Shown here piece after piece: positions 355 to 21,356 of a stretch of 41,575 nt of DNA. The stretch spans positions 1 to 41,575 of IMG/VR virus record IMGVR_UViG_3300046478_000024; one strand, 5' to 3'. Within the stretch, counting starts at the first letter, position 1; each line of letters opens with the position of its first letter. The translations under genes were made by a program, and so were the position numbers. This DNA is from a virus. The notes beneath the pieces are model-generated. The model did not search any database. It saw nothing but the letters and a program-made list of their open reading frames with translations, and was not told where the DNA came from.

Positions 355-1081
355 CGTGGCGATTGTGGATGGCCTCGATCCCGCTGTCGAGCGGCATCAG
401 CGACTCGCCGCCACCATACCGGGGCTCCCTCAAACGGTCCCCACGCCTTGGCGGGATGATCTTCACGTTGTCGCGGCCGACGAGCCGGGCGGCCTCGTCG
501 ATCATGAACATAGCCTCCCCAGGATCACGGGTGTACCGGCCCGGAGGAAGCTCAGCGACCCTCAGCAGCAACGCGACTGCCTGCCGCATCGTGAGGAAGT
601 AGCGGTAGCAGGACGTGACCGGCAGCGGGGGTTTCATGCCGGCCCATATCTCGAACACGTTCCCGGACGCTTCCCTGACGTTGTAGAACCGGGCGACACT
701 CTGCCCCGCGTTCAACGCCAGGCGCTCCGCTATGAGCTTCGTCGCGCCATACACCGTCTCGGGGTTGCACGCCTTGCACGTCGAGGTCAACACGACCCTG
801 CAGCCTGCTGGGGCGGCCTGTAGGACGTTCCTGGTGCCCTCCACGTTGATGCGGGTCGCTTCCCACGGCTCTACCTCGCCTTCGGGGGCATGCTTCGCGC
901 CAGCACAGTGAAAGATCACGTCGGGCCGGACACTTCCCACCAGGGTCCAGAGGGTTTGCAGGTCGAGAATGTCTACGCCCGTCACGATGTCAAAGCCGAC
1001 AACGGTGTCACCGCGCGCCTCCAAGACCGGGGCGAGGGCTTTGCCGACGCTGCCCTCACTACCGGTGATGAGGACTCTCAT
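347..1081 (-). CDS. NAD-dependent epimerase/dehydratase, FlaA1/CapD-like short-chain dehydrogenase
   Basis: The 244-residue protein begins with a Rossmann nucleotide-binding motif, ITGSEGSVG at residues 5-13. It continues with patterns typical of UDP-GlcNAc 4,6-dehydratase/epimerase relatives: KHAPEGEVEPWEATRINVEG, an STCKACNPE segment and YGATK with the catalytic Tyr and Lys. Members oxidise and remodel nucleotide-activated sugars. It is shorter than full FlaA1-type enzymes (about 330 residues), so substrate and exact reaction are open. Its ATG overlaps the stop of the upstream glycosyltransferase-like gene (ATGA) and its stop overlaps the next gene. This places it in a glycan-modification operon carried by the phage. 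Confidence 0.85.
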   Translation of the reverse strand: MRVLITGSEGSVGKALAPVLEARGDTVVGFDIVTGVDILDLQTLWTLVGSVRPDVIFHCAGAKHAPEGEVEPWEATRINVEGTRNVLQAAPAGCRVVLTSTCKACNPETVYGATKLIAERLALNAGQSVARFYNVREASGNVFEIWAGMKPPLPVTSCYRYFLTMRQAVALLLRVAELPPGRYTRDPGEAMFMIDEAARLVGRDNVKIIPPRRGDRLREPRYGGGESLMPLDSGIEAIHNRHDE

Positions 1082-1704
1082 GCGGCCACTTGCGCGAACA
1101 CGCCGTCACCGGGCCACCCCGGGGCTAGGTCATGGACGCGGGGATTGCCCAAGCCGATCCACCGCTCGCTCCCCCAGCGATCCTCACCAGGCACAGGCGG
1201 CAGCGTGTTCAGATAGGCGCAGGTCGCGAGCCAGTAGTTCCCGCCGAAGAACGGGGTCGGACCCATCGTGGACTCTCCGAACACGTCCGGGTGCAGCCAG
1301 TGGCAGCCCACCGCGTCGTAGCCTTCTTCGAGGATGCTGCGACAGTTCTCCCAGCCTTCCACGACGTGGTGAGCCATCGAGCGACGCCAGCGGTCGTTGA
1401 AGTCCGTCGGCTGGGATGCGCCCTTTGTGTGGGCGTAAAGCACGGCCGTTTCCGGGTGGGTCAAGGCCCAGATCCGTACAAGTTCCATCGTGCCCTGCTC
1501 ACTCTCGGGAGGCACGGGGATCGGCGTCGTGGAGAGCCCTGCGTCTCGGAGGATGCCATCCAGCTGGAGCCGCTTCTGCGCATCACCGGCCGCGCCAACG
1601 ATCACCGGCCCGTCAAAGGTGATCAGGGCTTCTAGATGCTCGGCCACGATCGTGGGCCACGCCTCGTTCTCCAGGTATGCATGGTAGAAGTGGATGGCCT
1701 GCAT
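1078..1704 (-). CDS. glycosyltransferase-like protein (paralogue of the gene at 2913-3494)
   Basis: The start chosen at 1704 has a strong AGGAGG ribosome site at 1712-1717. An upstream in-frame extension would run through the repeat array and is rejected. The 208-residue product shares blocks with the protein at 2913-3494: YAHTKGAS / YCHTKAAS, RRSMAHHVV / RRSMTEHVV, VGCHWLH / AGAHWID, FFGGNYWLATCAYLNTLPP / HFSGNFWLASAAYLRTLPP, then a Trp-rich tail. This pattern occurs in phage and bacterial proteins annotated as glycosyltransferase-family or capsular polysaccharide synthesis proteins. The catalytic mechanism is not evident from the sequence. Its neighbours (dehydratase, acyltransferase, GT4) support a role in glycan building. 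Its ribosome-binding site overlaps the outermost repeat of the TIGR-like array. Confidence 0.75.
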   Translation of the reverse strand: MQAIHFYHAYLENEAWPTIVAEHLEALITFDGPVIVGAAGDAQKRLQLDGILRDAGLSTTPIPVPPESEQGTMELVRIWALTHPETAVLYAHTKGASQPTDFNDRWRRSMAHHVVEGWENCRSILEEGYDAVGCHWLHPDVFGESTMGPTPFFGGNYWLATCAYLNTLPPVPGEDRWGSERWIGLGNPRVHDLAPGWPGDGVFAQVAA

Positions 1705-1712
1705 ATCATCGC

Positions 1713-1830
1713 CTCCTCGCTCGGTCCTTACGGTGCTCTCGGTCGACTCGGCTCGCTCCTGCAAGACGGTGCTCTCTCCGCTGGCGGCTCGCTCAATTGC
1801 CCCGGTGCTCTCATTGGATGCGGCTCTGGT
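1713..1830 (+). repeat. TIGR-like interspaced repeat array 1 (three 36-bp units, six 8-bp spacers)
   Basis: Two different 10-bp repeats alternate with exact spacing. Repeat A, CGGTGCTCTC, is perfect at 1731-1740, 1767-1776 and 1803-1812. Repeat B, CGGCTCGCTC, is perfect at 1749-1758 and 1785-1794, with degenerate copies at both ends (1713-1722, 8 of 10; 1821-1830, first half only). Each repeat type recurs every 36 bp. The spacers between them are all 8 bp and all different: ggtcctta, ggtcgact, ctgcaaga, tccgctgg, aattgccc, attggatg. The array lies immediately 5' of the Nop/IS110-type gene at 1903 and reads on the same strand. Alternating 'edge' and 'loop' repeats with two short spacers per 36-nt unit is the layout of TIGR arrays. 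That assignment rests on family knowledge and was not tested by search. Confidence 0.85.
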
Positions 1831-1847
1831 ACCGTACACGAAAAGCA

Positions 1848-1874
1848 CCCCCGCGCTGAGCTAACAGCCGGGGG
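1848..1874 (+). terminator. hairpin between array 1 and the Tas-like gene
   Basis: CCCCCG at 1848-1853 pairs with CGGGGG at 1869-1874, and inside it GCTG at 1855-1858 pairs with CAGC at 1865-1868. This gives about 10 bp with a one-base bulge and a 6-nt loop. No run of T follows on either side, so it is not a classical intrinsic terminator. It could end or stabilise the array transcript, or control the gene that starts at 1903. Confidence 0.45.
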
Positions 1875-1902
1875 CAGGCCACACCTAAACAGGAGGCGTG
1901 AC

Positions 1903-2730
1903 ATGCAGGAGACTACCGCAGCATCCCTTACCAGCGACGCGGCCATATCGCTCCCACGCGACTTGAAGGAAGCCGCCGCCACACTCGGCCGTGACGAGGC
2001 ACGATTTCTGGTGGACCTCTACTACCAGATGCAAGACAACCGCATCCGTGCCGCAGCCCAGGAGCGCCAGCTTCGCAAGACCGAGGAGCCGCACGCGACG
2101 CTCGCATGGTTCACCGGGCAGGCGGAGACTCTTGAGAACCAAGTCAAGCGGGCTCTCGACTCCTACTCCAGCGGGCAGCCGCTCGGCGAGTGGGCCAAGA
2201 GCATCTACGGCATTGGCCCTGTGATCGCCGCTGGGCTACTCGCCCACATCGACATCGAGAAGGCCCCGACCGTAGGGCACATTTGGGCGTTCGCGGGACT
2301 CGACCCGACACGCAAGTGGGAGAAAGGCGCTAAGCGTCCGCACAACGCCGCCTTGAAGCGCCTCTGCTGGATCGCAGGCGAGTCCTTCAAGCGGTTCTCC
2401 GCACACGAGGATTGCGTCTACGGGCACGCATACCGCGACCGCAAGGCGTACGAGCTGGAGCGTGACGAGCGCGGCGGGAATGCCGAGTGGGCCGCCAAGT
2501 CCCTCGCAGAGCGGAAGATCCAAGACAAGGCCCTCCGCGAGACATACGAGTCCGGCCACCTGCCAGCAGGCCGGCTCGATCTACGCGCTACCCGCTGGGC
2601 CGTCAAGCTCTTTTTGGCCCACTATCACCACGTCGGCTACGTCCTCGTGATGGGAAAGGAGGCGCCCAAGCCCTATGTCATCGAGCATCTAGGGCACACG
2701 GATTACGTCGCCCCGCCGAACTTCCCTTGA
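1903..2730 (+). CDS. Tas-like protein: Nop/IS110 Transposase_20-type RNA-guided protein without nuclease domain
   Basis: The ATG at 1903 has an AGGAGG site at 1891-1896, and the product has 275 residues. Residues 1-95 are helical and charged. Residues 98-165 carry the helix-hairpin-helix-like core of the Transposase_20 family: AKSIYGIGPVIAAGLLAHID, then VGHIWAFAGLDP, KRPHNAALKRLCWIAGESF. A basic Arg/Lys-rich C-terminal part follows (YRDRKAYELER, GRLDLRATRW, LFLAHYHHVGY). The N-terminal DEDD RuvC-like domain of true IS110 transposases is absent, and no HNH or RuvC motif is visible. In TIGR-Tas systems, proteins with this Nop-related domain bind short dual-guide RNAs made from neighbouring arrays. 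Two such arrays flank this gene. The best reading is a stand-alone TasA-like guide-RNA-binding protein. An automated call would be 'transposase'. It is the only plus-strand gene in the left 27 kb. Confidence 0.8.
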   Translation: MQETTAASLTSDAAISLPRDLKEAAATLGRDEARFLVDLYYQMQDNRIRAAAQERQLRKTEEPHATLAWFTGQAETLENQVKRALDSYSSGQPLGEWAKSIYGIGPVIAAGLLAHIDIEKAPTVGHIWAFAGLDPTRKWEKGAKRPHNAALKRLCWIAGESFKRFSAHEDCVYGHAYRDRKAYELERDERGGNAEWAAKSLAERKIQDKALRETYESGHLPAGRLDLRATRWAVKLFLAHYHHVGYVLVMGKEAPKPYVIEHLGHTDYVAPPNFP

Positions 2731-2914
2731 GCCGCTGTAGGTGAGAGCACCGAAGATCGGGAGCGAGCCGAAGACGTTGAGAGCACCGGCGGCTATGAGC
2801 GAGCCGTTTCGCGAGAGAGTCCCGATAGCGCAGAGCAAGCCGCGTTTGAGGAGAGCACCGTGTCTAGTGAGTGAGCCGAACTTCTGGAGAGCACCGATGC
2901 CATCGAGCGCACCT
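2725..2914 (-). repeat. TIGR-like interspaced repeat array 2 (five 36-bp units, inverted relative to array 1)
   Basis: This carries the same two repeats as array 1, reverse-complemented. GAGAGCACCG lies at 2743, 2779, 2851 and 2887, with a diverged copy GAGAGTCCCG at 2815. GAGCGAGCCG lies at 2761 and 2797, with one-base variants at 2833 and 2869. Degenerate end copies lie at 2725-2734 (GAGCCG half, overlapping the stop codon of the Tas-like gene) and 2905-2914 (7 of 10, touching the stop of the glycosyltransferase-like gene). Each type recurs every 36 bp. There are ten different 8-bp spacers, none shared with array 1. As in array 1, the outermost repeats are both of the B type, so units run B-A-B. 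The array fills the whole space between two genes. Confidence 0.85.
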
Positions 2915-3494
2915 ACCGAAAGAGGCCCATAGGGTTGCCCCGCCGCATGTTGAAGGTGGAGGGCTCGTTCTGCCCAACCCAAAACTCAGCCGCCATTCGG
3001 TCGTCCGTACCGCACGGCGGGAGTGTACGCAGATAGGCGGCAGAGGCCAGCCAGAAATTGCCAGAAAAGTGCGGCGGGGTGCCGTCGTCTATCCAATGAG
3101 CGCCAGCCAGGTCCGCCCCCGCTTCGATCCCTCGCAGCGCGTCGGCCCACCGGGAGACGACGTGCTCGGTCATGGACCGGCGCCACTCGATCTTCCACGG
3201 CGCAGGGTCGGACGCCGCCTTGGTGTGGCAGTAGAGGATGGCCTGGTCGTGCTCCTGGGCGTAGGCGTGCAGCGGGGCGAGCGTCACCTGCTCAAAGCCC
3301 GAATCGGCTTCCGCGGCTACCTGGACATCCCCGAGAGCGTTCAAGGCTCTTAGGCGGCTCTCCTGTGGCCCTACGAGGCCAACGTGGATGGGTCCGGGGA
3401 ACTCGCTGGCGCGCAGGGCGGCTAGCAGCTCGCTGACGGGCTCCTCCCACGCACCGGCACTCCAGACATGGAGGAAGCAGGTAGGGGGAGTCAT
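2913..3494 (-). CDS. glycosyltransferase-like protein (paralogue of the gene at 1078-1704)
   Basis: The start at 3494 makes a 4-nt ATGA overlap with the upstream GT4 gene, so the longer upstream frame is not used. The product has 193 residues. It shares with its paralogue the blocks ILYCHTKAASDPAPWKIEWR, RRSMTEHVVSRWADAL, AGAHWIDDGTPPHFSGNFWL, LRTLPPCGTDDRMAAEFWVG. An N-terminal FLHVWSAGAWEE and HVGLVGPQESR suggest a Rossmann-like or GT-A-like start. The function is presumed transfer or assembly of sugars with the adjacent GT4 enzyme. The stop codon abuts the outermost repeat of array 2, so the glycan operon is split here by the Tas-like island. Confidence 0.75.
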   Translation of the reverse strand: MTPPTCFLHVWSAGAWEEPVSELLAALRASEFPGPIHVGLVGPQESRLRALNALGDVQVAAEADSGFEQVTLAPLHAYAQEHDQAILYCHTKAASDPAPWKIEWRRSMTEHVVSRWADALRGIEAGADLAGAHWIDDGTPPHFSGNFWLASAAYLRTLPPCGTDDRMAAEFWVGQNEPSTFNMRRGNPMGLFR

Positions 3495-14625: not shown

Positions 14626-15315
14626 CTAGACCTCCACTGGGTGACGGAAACCAAGCCCTTCGAGGCTCAATCCCGTCAGCTTGCCTTCATCGACTTCCTG
14701 CTTTACCAGCGGGTCATCGATCTGCCATGCCTGCACCCATGAGGACTTCGTGACTGGCTCACCGCCCAACACCATGTCCATCGGCGCTATGTAATTCTCG
14801 ATCAGGTCTGCACCGGCGTCCCGGCCACTGTGCTGCACGTCCGGGGAATGCTCTGCCTTCGAGAGCGAGTAGTCCCGCATGAAGCCATGGCATGCCTTCT
14901 CGATCTCTGCCGGGGCGAAGATGTCGCCTTGGCTATCTTCGAGCCCCGGCTCTAGGACGACACCATAAAACTTGCCCTCGACATCGCTCTTACGCAGCGG
15001 GCAGGTATAGGCGACCTCCGCCTTCTCCATCGGCTCCTCCTTGTCGTCCTCCAGCGGGTTCGGCGCACCCAGCTCCTTCGCACGACGAGCGATCAGGGCC
15101 TTCGCTGCGGCCGTGTCACCGTGCCCTGAGCGGGCCAGCACGGCCGCAGGATGCAGATCCGCAGCGCTCGCTATGGGGTAGCTGCCTCCCGGCAACGCAT
15201 GGCCCTGACGGGCAAGAGAGCGGCGCTCAGCGGCCGTGAAATCACGCTTGTAGATCGCCTCCTCCGACTTGAACAACTCGTCGGTGGCAGATTTGTTCAG
15301 CCAGGACACACTCAC
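14626..15315 (-). CDS. XkdF-like prohead protease
   Basis: A GTG start at 15315 overlaps the portal stop (GTGA). Residues 1-95 contain a helical module, RDFTAAERRSLARQGHALPG followed by GSYPIASAADLHPAA and IARRAKELGAPNPL, seen at the ends of many phage head proteins. Residues about 100-229 match the XkdF family: KFYGVVLEPGLEDSQGDIFA, EKACHGFMRDY, AEHSPDVQHS, SWVQAWQIDDPLVKQEVDEG, KLTGLSLEGLG. The family is a putative serine protease acting on the prohead. Ser in 'LTGLSLEG' and His in 'AEHSPD' are candidate catalytic residues by analogy. Confidence 0.78.
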   Translation of the reverse strand: MSVSWLNKSATDELFKSEEAIYKRDFTAAERRSLARQGHALPGGSYPIASAADLHPAAVLARSGHGDTAAAKALIARRAKELGAPNPLEDDKEEPMEKAEVAYTCPLRKSDVEGKFYGVVLEPGLEDSQGDIFAPAEIEKACHGFMRDYSLSKAEHSPDVQHSGRDAGADLIENYIAPMDMVLGGEPVTKSSWVQAWQIDDPLVKQEVDEGKLTGLSLEGLGFRHPVEV

Positions 15316-18300
15316 TCCTCCTCTGTCTGGACAACAGGCTCAAAGCCGACGCTGCACTGCGGGTGATCGGCCTTCGGGGCGTCCGCGACAGGCATGAGCT
15401 CGCCGTCACGCTCCGCACACCCCGAGTTCGAGTCACCGTCACCGTACATCCCATGACGCACCCGAATCGCGGTGACGTGCGGGCTCGCCGTATAGGCGTT
15501 CAGGCACGCGGCGCGCTGCATGTCGTTCGTCTGGTCCGCGCTGATAAGCCGCGACCGGTAGGGCGCACCGGCCCGTGTGAACCGTCCGGCAGGCACGGCG
15601 CGCCGGATGCGTGCAGCGACGAGCGCGGGTGTCTCCCGACGGTCGCGTCCTTCCTCGATCGAACGCACCAGGGATGCTCTGACCTGCGGCTCGATGTCAC
15701 GGGCACTCATGTGCATCGCTTCGGTCTTACGCAGGCTATCCCCGGTCGTCATGTCCAGGCCCATCTGGTCGGTCAGGGTGCGCTCGGTGTCGCGCTTCAC
15801 GCGCTCCCGGTGGTTCTCCAGCAACGGGGCGAGACGCTGGCGTGTCCAGTCCGCGACTTTCACGACACGCAGCGTCGCGGCGGCGAGAGAGCGGATCTCA
15901 CGCTTGCTGTTCGGCAGCGTCTCCGGTGCCGTAGCGAGATAGGCGCTCGATGCGCGCGCACCCAGCTCGTGCAGCGCGCCTGTGATCTCACGGTCGAACT
16001 GGCCCGCGAGCACCAGGGCACGATCCGCTAGCGCGCGGGCGACCTCGACGACCCCTTCGGCCTTCTGGAGCTTCGCTTTTTCGCCTTCGCCCGGCTTCGG
16101 CTTCGCAGACTCCGCAGCCTTAGCCTTCTGCGGAGGGAAAGTGAAGTTAGAGCCGAGCCCTGCTGCCTCGAACATCTGTTTGAGGAACGCCGGGTCTTTC
16201 GGCAATTCCAGCCCGGCACCAGCGAGACTCCCGAGGAACAACCCGACCTTTTCCAGGTCGATCCTGCCGGCCGTCGTGGCAACGATTTTCGGGGGGTCCG
16301 TCGTCTTCACCCCGTTCAGCTTCAACAGCCTCGGGATCGCATACCGGTTCATCGGCTTGAGGATCTGTTCGATCATGGCATCCACAGCCATCCCGAACAG
16401 CTCGCTCTTGACATCCACCATCGCGTAGGAGCCCAGGCCGTCCTGCCCCAGCAGCATGAAGTCAGCCGCAACGCTCGCGGCGATCCTCTGCTCGTAGCGA
16501 CGAATCACCTTGTCAAGGTCGAACTGGCGGGACCCCGCAGCAGACATCAGGCCGATATCCCACTCAGCGGACGGGTAGACGATGCCCTCGTCCTCGTCAC
16601 GGTGGATCGTGGTGACGAGTTCACGGACCGTGTTGTACAGGTCCGCGTTCTCCGCCGAATAGAGATCGACGTTCGGCGGCGGCTTCGCGTACGGGATACC
16701 CGCAAGGTCCCGTGCGGCGCCGGTCGCCTCGATGTCCTGCAAGCCACGCATACGAAAATAGCTCGTCCACGCGCGACGCAAAATACTGAAACCCTCTGGC
16801 GAATTACGGACCCTGCGGTTGCGGATCAGCACGCCCTTCGTGATCGGGATCGCGTGCTGCTCGCCATGCCAATCAAGCTGGATCAGCGCCCGCAGCGAGC
16901 TGTACCCGTCAAAGTCCCAACGCAAGGTCGTTTCCTGTGCACGCAACGGCAGCTTGCGCCACCCCACGAGACCGTCGTCGTAGACGCTCGACGCGGGGTG
17001 CTGAGGTTCTTCGGTCGAGGGGGTGTCCTCGGACATTTCGTCCTGCCCGGGCTGTTCGCCGTTGCGCTTCTTGAACACTTCCTCCATGAACGCGTACCCG
17101 TAGGGCAGGTGCGTGAGCGATTCGCAGACGAAGTCGTCCCAGCCGTGGCTCATATCGTGCATGCAGTTGTGACTCGCGACGCCGTTGGCAAGGTAAGAGT
17201 GAGTGCCCGCGACCTCGCAGTTATAGACGGCGAGATCCTCCGCCTTCGTCTTCTCGATCGCCTTGATGGGGTAGTGGATGTATCCGTTGTGGATAAACGC
17301 CTGATTGCGTCCCCGGCTCTCGAAACCCACTCCCAGCACCCTGCCGAGAGCCGCTCCAAAACCCCCCTGCACCCACAGGTCGAGACGGGGCATGTAGGTC
17401 TTCCCGTATGTCCCTGCAGGGCGCTTAGTGAGACGCGTTAGCGCTCCCACGATCCCAAGCCTCAAGAGCATCACGCGGACCTGCTCAATCAGAACCTCGG
17501 ACACGCTCGTGAAGCAGAACCCTTTAGGGCCAAGGGTACCGTCGCCTCGCCAGTAGCCCACTAGGAAGTTGCGGACCACATCCTCGCTGCCCCGAGTGAT
17601 CCATTCCGGGGCTTCCTTGCCGGGGGCTAGATGTCCGCAAGACGCGAAGAACCTCGCGGCGATCACGGAGTTGAAACGTACGATCCGTGCCCGCGAGTTA
17701 GGCGATGGTGACTCTTTCGCCTCCACGCCGAAGATACTCCTTACGAGGCCCTGCACATCTCTCACGTACGCCTGCTCATCGGGGCCGAATGTGATGAAGA
17801 TGCCGCGCTGATCGGTACAGCCGTCCGCCACGAAGTAGCCGCACAGGCGAGCTAGATCAGGGGACGACTGCACGGCATCCGGCCCCCTTGCGGGCATGCC
17901 CTGTGGAGACCGTACATAGGAGAAGACCTCCTGCCCATCCGGGAGCGCCTCTACAGCCGGGACTGGCTCTAGTAGGAAGTCGCCAACGGCAACGGACTCG
18001 GCGGAGGCCCACTCATAGCGAAGGCCCTCCAGCCGGCGATTGCCGCCCCCCCCACGCGACCCCTCACGGGTCCACCAGTCTGCGGGCCGGCGAGCGATGT
18101 AGAGCGGATGCTCGGCGGTCGCAGTGAGCCTACCGCCAGTACGTCGAAGCTCGTAGATATCGCCGGCATACTGGCGGGCAAGCACTTCCGTCACCCGATG
18201 TGCAGTCCCGTCGTGGCTGACGACTCGGTGGCCTACCCGTAGGGCCTCAATTGGTACCTGACTTCCGTCTGCCAACCGAACCCTGGTACCCGCTGGATGG

Positions 18301-18635
18301 CACTGCTCGACGTGCTTACGCCACCGTGGTTCTCCGCCCTCCACGCTGTACGTCACACGCTGCGCCAACATTTCGATCATGAACAGGAACCCGCCCGCGA
18401 CAGGATCGTTATCCATGAATTCGCGGTAGCGCCACGCGGCGTCGCGGCCTTGGAGTTCGGCAAGAAACTCATCGAAAATCCAGCCGGACCACTGTCGCAG
18501 GCCCGACGTGCCCAGCTCCGCGAACGGCGAGACCTTGCGGGAGCGCGAAACCCCATAGTCGCGGACCGCGATGGGTCGCACGATGCGGACAGCGGTACCG
18601 TCGCCCGTCTGGCTGCTTGCGCGTGGTGGCGGCAT
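15312..18635 (-). CDS. portal protein with intein and C-terminal MuF-type domain
   Basis: The 1107-residue precursor has the order: portal part 1 (residues 1-111), intein (112-490), portal part 2 (491 to about 850) and a MuF-like tail (about 880-1107). Portal text includes REFMDNDPVAGGFLFMIEML before the insertion. After it come PYGYAFMEEVFKKR, WDFDGYSSLRALIQLDWHGE, GVLIRNRRVRNSPEGFSILR and GLQDIEATGAARDLAGIPYA, typical of DUF935/Mu gp29-like portals. The C-terminus has ISADQTNDMQRAACLNAYTA, HGMYGDGDSNSGCAERDGEL and DHPQCSVGFEP, matching MuF minor head proteins with their Cys/His pattern. Fusion of portal and MuF in one chain is unusual but not unique. GAGG precedes the ATG. The spliced product would be 728 residues. 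Confidence 0.85.
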   Translation of the reverse strand: MPPPRASSQTGDGTAVRIVRPIAVRDYGVSRSRKVSPFAELGTSGLRQWSGWIFDEFLAELQGRDAAWRYREFMDNDPVAGGFLFMIEMLAQRVTYSVEGGEPRWRKHVEQCHPAGTRVRLADGSQVPIEALRVGHRVVSHDGTAHRVTEVLARQYAGDIYELRRTGGRLTATAEHPLYIARRPADWWTREGSRGGGGNRRLEGLRYEWASAESVAVGDFLLEPVPAVEALPDGQEVFSYVRSPQGMPARGPDAVQSSPDLARLCGYFVADGCTDQRGIFITFGPDEQAYVRDVQGLVRSIFGVEAKESPSPNSRARIVRFNSVIAARFFASCGHLAPGKEAPEWITRGSEDVVRNFLVGYWRGDGTLGPKGFCFTSVSEVLIEQVRVMLLRLGIVGALTRLTKRPAGTYGKTYMPRLDLWVQGGFGAALGRVLGVGFESRGRNQAFIHNGYIHYPIKAIEKTKAEDLAVYNCEVAGTHSYLANGVASHNCMHDMSHGWDDFVCESLTHLPYGYAFMEEVFKKRNGEQPGQDEMSEDTPSTEEPQHPASSVYDDGLVGWRKLPLRAQETTLRWDFDGYSSLRALIQLDWHGEQHAIPITKGVLIRNRRVRNSPEGFSILRRAWTSYFRMRGLQDIEATGAARDLAGIPYAKPPPNVDLYSAENADLYNTVRELVTTIHRDEDEGIVYPSAEWDIGLMSAAGSRQFDLDKVIRRYEQRIAASVAADFMLLGQDGLGSYAMVDVKSELFGMAVDAMIEQILKPMNRYAIPRLLKLNGVKTTDPPKIVATTAGRIDLEKVGLFLGSLAGAGLELPKDPAFLKQMFEAAGLGSNFTFPPQKAKAAESAKPKPGEGEKAKLQKAEGVVEVARALADRALVLAGQFDREITGALHELGARASSAYLATAPETLPNSKREIRSLAAATLRVVKVADWTRQRLAPLLENHRERVKRDTERTLTDQMGLDMTTGDSLRKTEAMHMSARDIEPQVRASLVRSIEEGRDRRETPALVAARIRRAVPAGRFTRAGAPYRSRLISADQTNDMQRAACLNAYTASPHVTAIRVRHGMYGDGDSNSGCAERDGELMPVADAPKADHPQCSVGFEPVVQTEEE
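17166..18302 (-). other. portal intein, class 1-like, with LAGLIDADG endonuclease
   Basis: The intein covers residues 112-490 of the portal precursor (379 residues). It begins at a Cys in block A (CHPAGTRVRLADGSQVPI). Block B is GGRLTATAEHPLYI with the expected T-x-x-H. The end is VAGTHSYLANGVASHN, and the +1 residue is Cys 491. Two LAGLIDADG-type helices, DLARLCGYFVADG near 260 and FLVGYWRGDG near 357, indicate a homing endonuclease. All residues needed for normal splicing are present. Confidence 0.9.
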
Positions 18636-18680: not shown

Positions 18681-21356
18681 TTAGTTGGGTCGGCGCCCCC
18701 ACGAGCCACCGCCGGCCCTCACACGCAGCGGAGCCTGCCATGACCCACCACGACGCCTGAGTACCTGCGGAGCAGCGACTTTAGGCGCGACGCGCGTCAT
18801 GAAAAACGCTTGCACAACACTGTCGCCCTGGTCGGTGGAGCGTTTGAGGCGTTTCTTGATGCTCGACTTCTTCTCCACCGCGATCCGCCCGTTCGTGCCT
18901 TCCTCCCAACGTGGCGCGAGCAGGTCGGCAGTCAGCTGCTCGTAAGCCTTCCCGCCAGGGATAGCGAGATCGAACCCGGAGCCCGGCTCAAGCATTTCAC
19001 GAAGATTCCACCATGCCGCCGAACGCGTCCGGTCGAACCCCATCTGTCCCCCACGACTCCGTAGGTCCGTTTTGTTGGAGGCCACGAAGTCCACGACGCC
19101 GATGCCGTTCGCACGAAGCTCGTTCGCCATAGATTCACCCGCGTTCAACGCGTCGATCACGACCCTCGCGCGACGTTCGGGGAACAACGCGAGTCCTTCC
19201 AGCTCTTTCCTCGTGACCGTCGTGTCCAGCCGGTGAGGGCGCAACAGCACAGCCGAGATCACGGGACCGTGGCGCAGCGCGAAACACGAGTGGTCGCCGC
19301 CTTTGCCCGCGATGTCCGCACCGATGATTTCCAGTGGCCCCAACGACTCGTGGACAGGGACAACAAGGCCCTGCTGCGGGTCGAGTTCGAGTTCGTCCCA
19401 TCGGGCGTTCGCTTCGAGCAGATGCTCATGGCGGACAACGGAGTCTTCGCCCTGGCGAGCGAACTCGCCCCGGACATGGTTAGCGAAAATCGCGGAGTCT
19501 TCGCCGTACAGGTCGATGTATTCCTGCACACCGTCCTCGCTGACCTGGCCGGCTGCGAGAGCTTCCTCCAACGTGACATGAACAGCCACATAGCGGCCCC
19601 CGCCGTGTCTGCCTTCGCAGAGATCGTAGAAACGGCCCTCCGGCACGAACGGCGTCGACGTGACGAGCACATAGGCGTTCGCTCGCGTGTCGCGCCCCGC
19701 ACCCAGCAACGCTCCCTGGAGGGCGTCGTAAATGTTGTCCGGGATACTCCAAGCCTCGTCGAAGATGAACAGCAGCTCGTCCGCGTGCGCACCTTCGATC
19801 TTCGCGCTATCCGCGGTCGCGGCGAGAACAACCGACCCATGTTTGAGACGGAGCTGCTTGAGCATCATCTCCTGGTTCGGGATAAACGGCTCACGGCCGA
19901 TCTCACCCCAGTCCAGACGCGTCACCCAACGGGTCCGCAGCTGCCCCCACAGGAACTCGATGAGCTGCCTGTAGACCTTCGCGGTGACGACAACCATCCA
20001 GTCCTCGCCCGCCGCCTCACGAGTCAAAGCAAACCATATTATTGTCCAAGCATTTGACGCCGTGTTATGGGTGGGAATGAAGTCCTCGCCAGCGAGGAAC
20101 AAGTGCGAGGGCGAGTCCACCGCGATGCACCGCGTGAGCTGGCGCCCGAGCGGCGTCATGCCAACGATGGTTCGCCGCGTATGCCGAGAGGCCTGTCCCG
20201 CACGGGGCTGCCAGTCATAACGCTCAAGGCGGTAGGGACAGAAGTCGAAGCGCGCCATGATGCGCCAGCGGCGTCCGACCTCGCGCCCTTCGATCTTGGC
20301 CGCGCTCTCTTTCATGCGAACCACAAGGCCGAGGGAGCGCAGCAACTCGGCGATCCCCTTGGCGAGAAACTCGTTGGTCTGGGTGATCTCGTCGTAGCCG
20401 TGGCCGCGATAGCCATCGGAGTCCCAGAGTCCCTGCACAAGTGCTCGGCGCTGCTCGATTGAGGCGCGAAGATAGATATCGGGGATGTGCTTGTCGTTGA
20501 GCACCCCGAGTTCGCGCAGGCGAGGCCTGAGCCCGTCCTTCCGTCGCGTCGCGGCAGGATCACGAAATCCCATCTCCCAGACGCCACTGGTGCGACGCGG
20601 ATCGCGCCGTAGCGCGGAGGTCTCATAGCCTGCCGCAACGAGTTCCCGCTCCACGTGGGACTTATCCCGCTCGCCAACGGTCAAGCGGGTACTCCCCGAG
20701 TCCCCATCTCCGAGCCAGTAGCCAAAGATGTAGGGGTCGATCGGCAACTCCGCCTCGGGCAAGTCGAGTGGCTTGGTAGTGGGCACGCTCCACCGCCAAT
20801 CTCCACGCCCCGCCGTATGAAGCGTATCCGCAATCCGCTGCGTAGTGACAGTCTTCGTCGCGGACCACCATTCGCGCCAGTCCGTGACGCGAATCGCCTT
20901 GCCGTGGCGGCCAGGCTCGTGAGGACGCTGATAGCAGTCCACCGCGTTCCACAGATGGCCGGCACCCGCCACGATGGCTGCCCCATCCGCGAAGACAACG
21001 TTGTAGGCGTCGCGCCACTGTGGCTCCTCGGCGTAGAGCACCCGACAGGGCTTTCCCTGCTCGTCAAGGATGATGTCGCCCTCCGTGAGCGCCCCCATCG
21101 TGGTCCAGCCGGTAGGCGTCGGGATCGGCGTCTCGACCGCCAAGTCCTTGCCTGCGCCGCGGGGAGCGCGTACCGCGAGCCTGCCGTGCTGCACCAGCGT
21201 CTCCATGTTGCGGAGCTGGTACGGGGCGGGTTCTTCGCCGGGCGCCCACCGGATGCAGTGCTTGACGAAACCCGCGGGGTCGTCGTGAAAGCGGAGCGCC
21301 CCGGTGATCTCGGGCGCGAGGCGTCCTCCCATGATGCTCAAAGCGCTCCCGGTCAC
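18681..21356 (-). CDS. terminase large subunit interrupted by an intein in the P-loop
   Basis: A GTG start at 21356 has an AGGAGG site. The 891-residue precursor carries the packaging ATPase and nuclease. The Walker A motif, RAPRGAGK then TASNAW, is split after Lys 70 by an intein (residues 71-431). After it come SAKIEGAHADELLFIFDEAW (Walker B), VLVTSTPFVPEGRFYDL (coupling motif region), and the nuclease domain with LEIIGADIAGKGGDHSCFAL (first Asp), RARVVIDALNAGESM (second Asp) and a late SSIKKRLKRSTDQGDSVVQA (third acidic residue). The spliced protein would be 530 residues, a normal size. The insertion in the P-loop means no ATPase activity before splicing. Confidence 0.93.
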   Translation of the reverse strand: MTGSALSIMGGRLAPEITGALRFHDDPAGFVKHCIRWAPGEEPAPYQLRNMETLVQHGRLAVRAPRGAGKDLAVETPIPTPTGWTTMGALTEGDIILDEQGKPCRVLYAEEPQWRDAYNVVFADGAAIVAGAGHLWNAVDCYQRPHEPGRHGKAIRVTDWREWWSATKTVTTQRIADTLHTAGRGDWRWSVPTTKPLDLPEAELPIDPYIFGYWLGDGDSGSTRLTVGERDKSHVERELVAAGYETSALRRDPRRTSGVWEMGFRDPAATRRKDGLRPRLRELGVLNDKHIPDIYLRASIEQRRALVQGLWDSDGYRGHGYDEITQTNEFLAKGIAELLRSLGLVVRMKESAAKIEGREVGRRWRIMARFDFCPYRLERYDWQPRAGQASRHTRRTIVGMTPLGRQLTRCIAVDSPSHLFLAGEDFIPTHNTASNAWTIIWFALTREAAGEDWMVVVTAKVYRQLIEFLWGQLRTRWVTRLDWGEIGREPFIPNQEMMLKQLRLKHGSVVLAATADSAKIEGAHADELLFIFDEAWSIPDNIYDALQGALLGAGRDTRANAYVLVTSTPFVPEGRFYDLCEGRHGGGRYVAVHVTLEEALAAGQVSEDGVQEYIDLYGEDSAIFANHVRGEFARQGEDSVVRHEHLLEANARWDELELDPQQGLVVPVHESLGPLEIIGADIAGKGGDHSCFALRHGPVISAVLLRPHRLDTTVTRKELEGLALFPERRARVVIDALNAGESMANELRANGIGVVDFVASNKTDLRSRGGQMGFDRTRSAAWWNLREMLEPGSGFDLAIPGGKAYEQLTADLLAPRWEEGTNGRIAVEKKSSIKKRLKRSTDQGDSVVQAFFMTRVAPKVAAPQVLRRRGGSWQAPLRVRAGGGSWGRRPN
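20064..21146 (-). other. terminase intein, apparent class 3, with LAGLIDADG endonuclease
   Basis: The 361-residue intein starts with Asp (DLAVETPIPTPTGWTTMGAL), not Cys or Ser, so it lacks the usual N-terminal nucleophile. Instead it shows the three scattered residues of class 3 inteins: Trp in block B (GAGHLWNAVD), Cys in block F (LTRCIAVDSPSHLFL) and Thr in block G (GEDFIPTHN). The +1 extein residue is Thr. Endonuclease motifs are YIFGYWLGDGDSG near 209 and ALVQGLWDSDGYRG near 305. Class 3 inteins are linked to phages in earlier work. The residue assignment is from motif reading and should be verified by alignment. Confidence 0.85.

Follow-up and report, generated by a model that had tools for sequence, protein, structure and literature searches.

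A phage-borne TIGR-TasA module with two dual-spacer arrays and a candidate prophage target of a related system

The tas locus and its surroundings

The window, by which we mean the whole 41,575-nucleotide stretch of viral DNA analysed (IMG/VR record IMGVR_UViG_3300046478_000024), carries a gene for a Tas protein with a repeat array on either side. The features of the module and its immediate neighbours are listed here in order of position.

1078-1704, minus strand: flanking gene, paralogue of 2913-3494 (37% identity), with array 1 just upstream; no Pfam match
1716-1826, minus strand: TIGR array 1, consisting of a truncated edge, three dual-spacer units and a truncated edge; divergent from tas
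1848-1875, no strand assigned: strong GC hairpin separating array 1 from tas; on the minus strand it resembles a terminator, with a T-run at 1844-1841
1891-1896, plus strand: perfect Shine-Dalgarno sequence AGGAGG
1903-2730, plus strand: tasA-type gene, 275 aa, a Nop-domain effector according to NCBIfam and to PDB sequence and fold matches, with no nuclease domain in Pfam
2729-2909, plus strand: TIGR array 2, consisting of a truncated edge, five dual-spacer units and a truncated edge; starts at the tas stop codon
2913-3494, minus strand: flanking paralogue, convergent with array 2; no Pfam match

The start of tas was placed at 1903 because of the Shine-Dalgarno sequence at 1891-1896. The paralogues at 1078-1704 and 2913-3494, whose family is unassigned, lie on either side of the module and on the strand opposite to it; the arrangement looks as though the module had been inserted between duplicates. 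Further along the window, the terminase-like gene (18681-21356) and the portal gene (15312-18635) each contain a LAGLIDADG domain, the latter together with Hint/intein motifs, and both genes look intein-interrupted. The terminase of this phage is only ~30% identical to those of known phages.

The gene product is a TasA-type protein

A preliminary description of this DNA, made from the letters alone, had taken the product of 1903-2730 to be a Tas protein, and both profile and structure searches bear this out. The NCBIfam model NF052498 (TIGR_Tas_endo, "TIGR-Tas system RNA-guided endonuclease") scored 194 bits against a cut-off of 100 (E 2.9e-57), whereas the IS110 model reached 26.9 bits against a cut-off of 140, covering only the C-terminal half of the profile. 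The best sequence matches to solved structures were TasR (9mty, E 2e-15) and TasH (21kl, E 6e-13). When an AlphaFold model of the protein (mean pLDDT 85) was searched with Foldseek, ranks 1-11 were all TasH or TasR complexes with tigRNA, and IS621 came next. Pfam detected neither an HNH nor a RuvC domain in the protein, and its alignment to TasH covers only the portion after the N-terminal HNH region of TasH. Since the alignment skips the nuclease region and Pfam finds no nuclease, the protein is of the TasA type, a Nop-domain protein on its own. A PADLOC search gave no match.

It had also been anticipated that routine annotation would call the gene a transposase. This holds for Pfam (Transposase_20, E 1e-5 over 40 residues) and for PHROGs (labelled "transposase"), but current NCBIfam names TIGR-Tas. 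The PHROG family phrog_4285, "transposase", probably has Tas proteins among its members. The word "endonuclease" in the name of NF052498 is likewise misleading, TasA members having no nuclease domain.

Structure and orientation of the arrays

Both arrays consist of alternating edge and loop repeats of 10 bp and of 8-bp spacers at a step of exactly 18/36 bp. This agrees with the TIGR-Tas pattern, in which two repeats of 8-12 nt alternate beside tas and each unit of about 36 nt holds two short spacers. They hold eight complete units with 16 spacers of 8 nt, all different, so that the two arrays with a 36-bp period and 16 distinct spacers described earlier were found again around the gene. The relaxed three-repeat pattern GAGNNNNCCG-N8-GAGNNNNCCG-N8-GAGNNNNCCG matched ten times in the window, every time inside the two arrays, and the three-repeat array pattern occurred in 0/100 dinucleotide shuffles of the window. 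The arrays do begin and end with the CGAG-type repeat, as had been noted, in the form of truncated edge copies (GAGCCG and GAGCG). Edge and loop repeats of the window are both GAG-N4-CCG, and the outer bases of edge and loop mostly agree across 1,542 units. An Rfam search gave no match.

The guide strand was assigned by comparison with two relatives, Salicola phage CGphi29 and L002. Experiments have shown that the array of CGphi29 is processed and that it guides DNA cleavage (PMC12045711). Its edge repeat AAGCGAGCCA and its loop repeat AAGACAACCA are almost the same as the repeats of the window. L002, a 45% identical relative, has TGCGAGCCA and TGAGAAACCA as its repeats, and its array begins at the tas stop codon. 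From these comparisons we read the window repeats as edge GAGCGAGCCG and loop GAGAGCACCG, with guides read from the minus strand in array 1 and from the plus strand in array 2. The repeats had previously been written on the opposite strand, and this is corrected here.

Within 3 kb of 87 tas genes, 156/157 arrays lie on the tas strand, and array 1 of the window is the sole exception. This divergent array is a minor structural peculiarity that departs from an otherwise strict orientation rule. It has no obvious promoter and sits downstream of the minus-strand terminator-like hairpin. Because this strong hairpin with its short T-run separates the array from any obvious minus-strand promoter, array 1 may be silent, or it may be transcribed from an unrecognised promoter. 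The number of terminators in the module region is not above chance, and no rho-independent terminator was found 3' of array 2. A terminator after the array has been called typical of TIGR-Tas, not defining (PMC12045711).

Comparison with characterised systems

The kind of module is already known, as the TIGR-Tas family. SpTIGR-TasH of CGphi29 (HQ634153; PDB 21kl, 9w04) resembles the window module in its Nop-domain effector, 36-bp units, 8-nt spacers and an array downstream of the gene. It differs in having an N-terminal HNH nuclease and one array with a clear terminator after it. FpTIGR-TasA of Flavonifractor plautii, a solo Nop domain without a nuclease (Faure et al. 2025, PMC12045711), is by its description similar in domain content and in its dual-repeat array, which is processed to 36-nt RNAs, but has 9-nt spacers. 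The prophage TIGR-TasA of Acidobacteriaceae bacterium KBS 96 encodes a 52% identical protein with 8-nt spacers and an array downstream of tas. Its edge repeat, GAGCGAGCCA, is the counterpart of GAGCGAGCCG in the window. In contrast to the window, it has a single array and candidate targets in a co-resident prophage. The RNA-guided IS621/IS110 transposases share a Nop-like RNA-binding core and are the next structural matches after Tas, but have a DEDD catalytic domain and a single bridge RNA, both absent from the window. Taken together, the sequence and fold evidence makes it almost certain that the module is a TIGR-TasA system, that is, a Nop-domain Tas protein without a nuclease and two TIGR arrays. 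By analogy with the characterised relatives, RNA-guided DNA binding is very probably its activity.

Relatives and spacer turnover

A scan of IMG/VR revealed ~295 viral stretches encoding Tas relatives, 80 of which were fetched, and 57 viral stretches with exactly the repeat pair of the window. We extracted 1,228 distinct guide units from 112 loci, some of which are the same contig. Homologous tas genes carry the same kind of arrays. When tas genes were at least 98.8% identical in DNA, locus pairs had essentially all units in common. A pair with tas at 96% identity had one common unit, and pairs below 96% had none to three. Repeats are constant between loci while spacers differ, and spacer turnover is much faster than that of the tas gene, which is the reverse of the base-by-base conservation expected of coding sequence. 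This turnover suggests selection for changing targets. Among near-identical guide units there was no codon periodicity of the kind that would mark coding targets.

In five loci (L017, L021, L094, L147 and L150), one array contains near-duplicate units that differ in one spacer or in 1-2 bases. Near-duplicate units are in excess within one array over different contigs, suggesting that they arise by duplication and drift. Microcystis phage Mvi-JY20 (PP438412) has a TIGR array of 36-bp units directly after tas, at 4649-4913 of L005; its tas is annotated as a hypothetical protein, and the array has no annotation among the listed features. In Halomonas sp. NO4 (L146, 7720-7980) the array lies upstream of tas, and the edge repeats are degenerate (AAGTGAGACA, AATCGAGACA) while the loops are mostly intact.

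Outside viral records, Tas relatives turned up in fifteen bacterial or archaeal records when one genome per species was scanned, and KBS 96 was the only one of 396 Acidobacteriota genomes above the cut-off. No Tas relative was found in the plasmids searched.

Target searches in phage and host DNA

The predicted 16-bp target reads spacer A and then, with no gap, spacer B in reverse complement. We derived this rule from the published cut sites, which leave 3' overhangs with one spacer per strand (PMC12045711); the orientation is our own derivation from the text of that paper and was fixed ahead of any target search. For 599 units in 40 whole or partial phage contigs, the best self-matches were indistinguishable from those of mis-paired and foreign controls, and no unit had a 16/16 match in its own contig. 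The window itself holds 13/16 matches to its guides. In 2.35 Mb of related phage DNA, strict target matches numbered 72 against 70.6 expected, showing no excess, while loose matches numbered 977 against 877 +- 40 (z 2.5); since there was no excess at the stricter match, we do not claim the loose one. Five of the eight window units, searched for exactly in IMG/VR, gave 1-33 scattered hits each, roughly chance level, with no contig matched exactly by two of the five, and yielded no target for the guides of the window. Exact 16/16 matches also arise from unrelated guides in genomes not their own, and a lone 16-mer match is therefore weak. Seven other genomes with tas and arrays showed no co-located targets. 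One guide of Halomonas sp. NO4 has a 15/16 match in a cytochrome-c maturation region.

Candidate natural targets in a second prophage of KBS 96

In KBS 96 (L143), tas lies in prophage 1, which has integrase, terminase, portal, protease and capsid genes. The guides of this system were searched in its own 6.7-Mb genome. Guide 1 matched 16/16 at 6,329,962, at a site containing TAAAAGCAGAATCGAA, and guide 4 matched 14/16 at 6,329,052, 0.9 kb away (loci L236-L239), with both mismatches at the outer edge of spacer A. Both sites are inside prophage 2, which has its own integrase, HTH repressor, small terminase, protease and capsid. The first takes in codons close to the beginning of the gene for an 84-aa HTH_17 protein that resembles excisionase/Cox regulators, and the second is in a gene with weak similarity to replication initiator O. 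The matches of the KBS 96 guides appear to fall on the genetic switch of a competing prophage.

The significance of the pair was assessed against several controls. In an 80-kb region, picked because the hits were there, the true pairing of spacers scored 44 and 265 derangements of the same spacers scored at most 13; among the 719 other permutations, one, which is not a derangement, also reached 44. None of 50,000 random six-unit arrays drawn from the viral set reached the KBS 96 score, and, genome-wide, ten mis-paired KBS 96 guides matched nowhere at 15 or more positions. The chance of an exact hit anywhere in the genome, multiplied by the chances of its lying in another prophage and of a nearby second hit of 14/16 or better, came to an estimated ~1e-5, or ~1e-4 once eight genomes are allowed for. 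We regard the target pair as a strong lead, not proof. As far as the literature shows, this candidate natural target is new; the literature searched left out most subscription papers and preprints, and we make no claim of priority.

Discussion

Two readings would remove the module altogether. If 1903-2730 encoded an IS110-family transposase beside chance repeats, the Transposase_20 match and the PHROG label would be accounted for. The comparison of model scores refutes this, with 26.9 bits against the 140 required for IS110, TIGR_Tas far above its cut-off and no N-terminal DEDD domain. The arrays did not arise by chance in 100 shuffles and homologous genes carry the same arrays, leaving this reading next to no likelihood. 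The arrays could alternatively be coding repeats of the neighbouring genes, 36 bp being 12 codons, and open frames do pass through both. Yet no extension of this kind is present in the paralogue of the flanking gene, and the repeats match TIGR repeats of other phages. Spacer turnover with constant repeats, which leaves the spacers of close relatives unrelated, excludes coding repeats for practical purposes, and we consider the idea vanishingly improbable.

The remaining alternatives accept a TIGR-TasA module and differ in what it acts on. Guides aimed at the DNA of the phage itself, for instance to help integration, replication or gene regulation, would fit the ~180 degree bend that TasR imposes on DNA, the proposed role of TasA as an integration aid (PMC12045711) and the 13/16 matches in the window; such action is nevertheless distinctly unlikely given that self-matches were no better than the controls in 40 contigs, and spacers that change faster than tas are unlike a fixed internal function. 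Host chromosomal genes, attacked in counter-defence or for host reprogramming, are suggested by the 15/16 match in Halomonas sp. NO4. That match is single and about chance level, it has no second match nearby, and the other hosts searched contained none, so that host genes are rather unlikely targets. Finally, the KBS 96 cluster could be a coincidence that leaves the natural role of TasA unexplained: it is one case only, and unrelated guides also give single 16/16 matches. Against this, two guides fall within 0.9 kb of each other in the lytic-switch region of another prophage, the permutation (bar the one above), random-array and mis-paired controls do not come up to the true guides, and the joint estimate is ~1e-5, or ~1e-4 over eight genomes. 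We hold coincidence to be quite improbable.

The reading that we favour is a phage-borne TIGR-TasA that binds DNA under RNA guidance and blocks a competing phage or prophage, and we place its probability at roughly 70%. Following the characterised relatives, the arrays would be cut into 36-nt tigRNAs, each holding one A and one B spacer of 8 nt. A TasA dimer loaded with a single tigRNA would bind and bend a 16-bp site made up of A and then the reverse complement of B. The nuclease-free complex would open the 16 bp and bend the DNA at the excisionase start and the replication gene, acting like CRISPR interference. If the one natural case is a guide, the complex would sit on early lytic or excision genes and block transcription or replication of the competitor, so that a rival prophage would be held silent without cutting the chromosome that both need. 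The single KBS 96 case leaves the silencing of rival mobile elements by TasA evenly poised, and the same role may be extended to the window phage by analogy. Phage-against-phage immunity as a general description, in which rapidly changing guides lead a nuclease-free complex to repress the switch that controls excision and replication in rival prophages, is a tentative proposal to which we give slightly less than even odds.

What nuclease-free TasA does and what it naturally targets were stated as open questions in the founding paper (PMC12045711), and the KBS 96 case is a first hint of the purpose of such systems. The KBS 96 lysogen provides a concrete test case with a named guide, a target gene and a predicted effect, and the clade around the window offers, in defined phages, more than a thousand guide units for testing the same idea. 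If true, a resident prophage would use TIGR-TasA to silence its neighbours while leaving their shared chromosome uncut.
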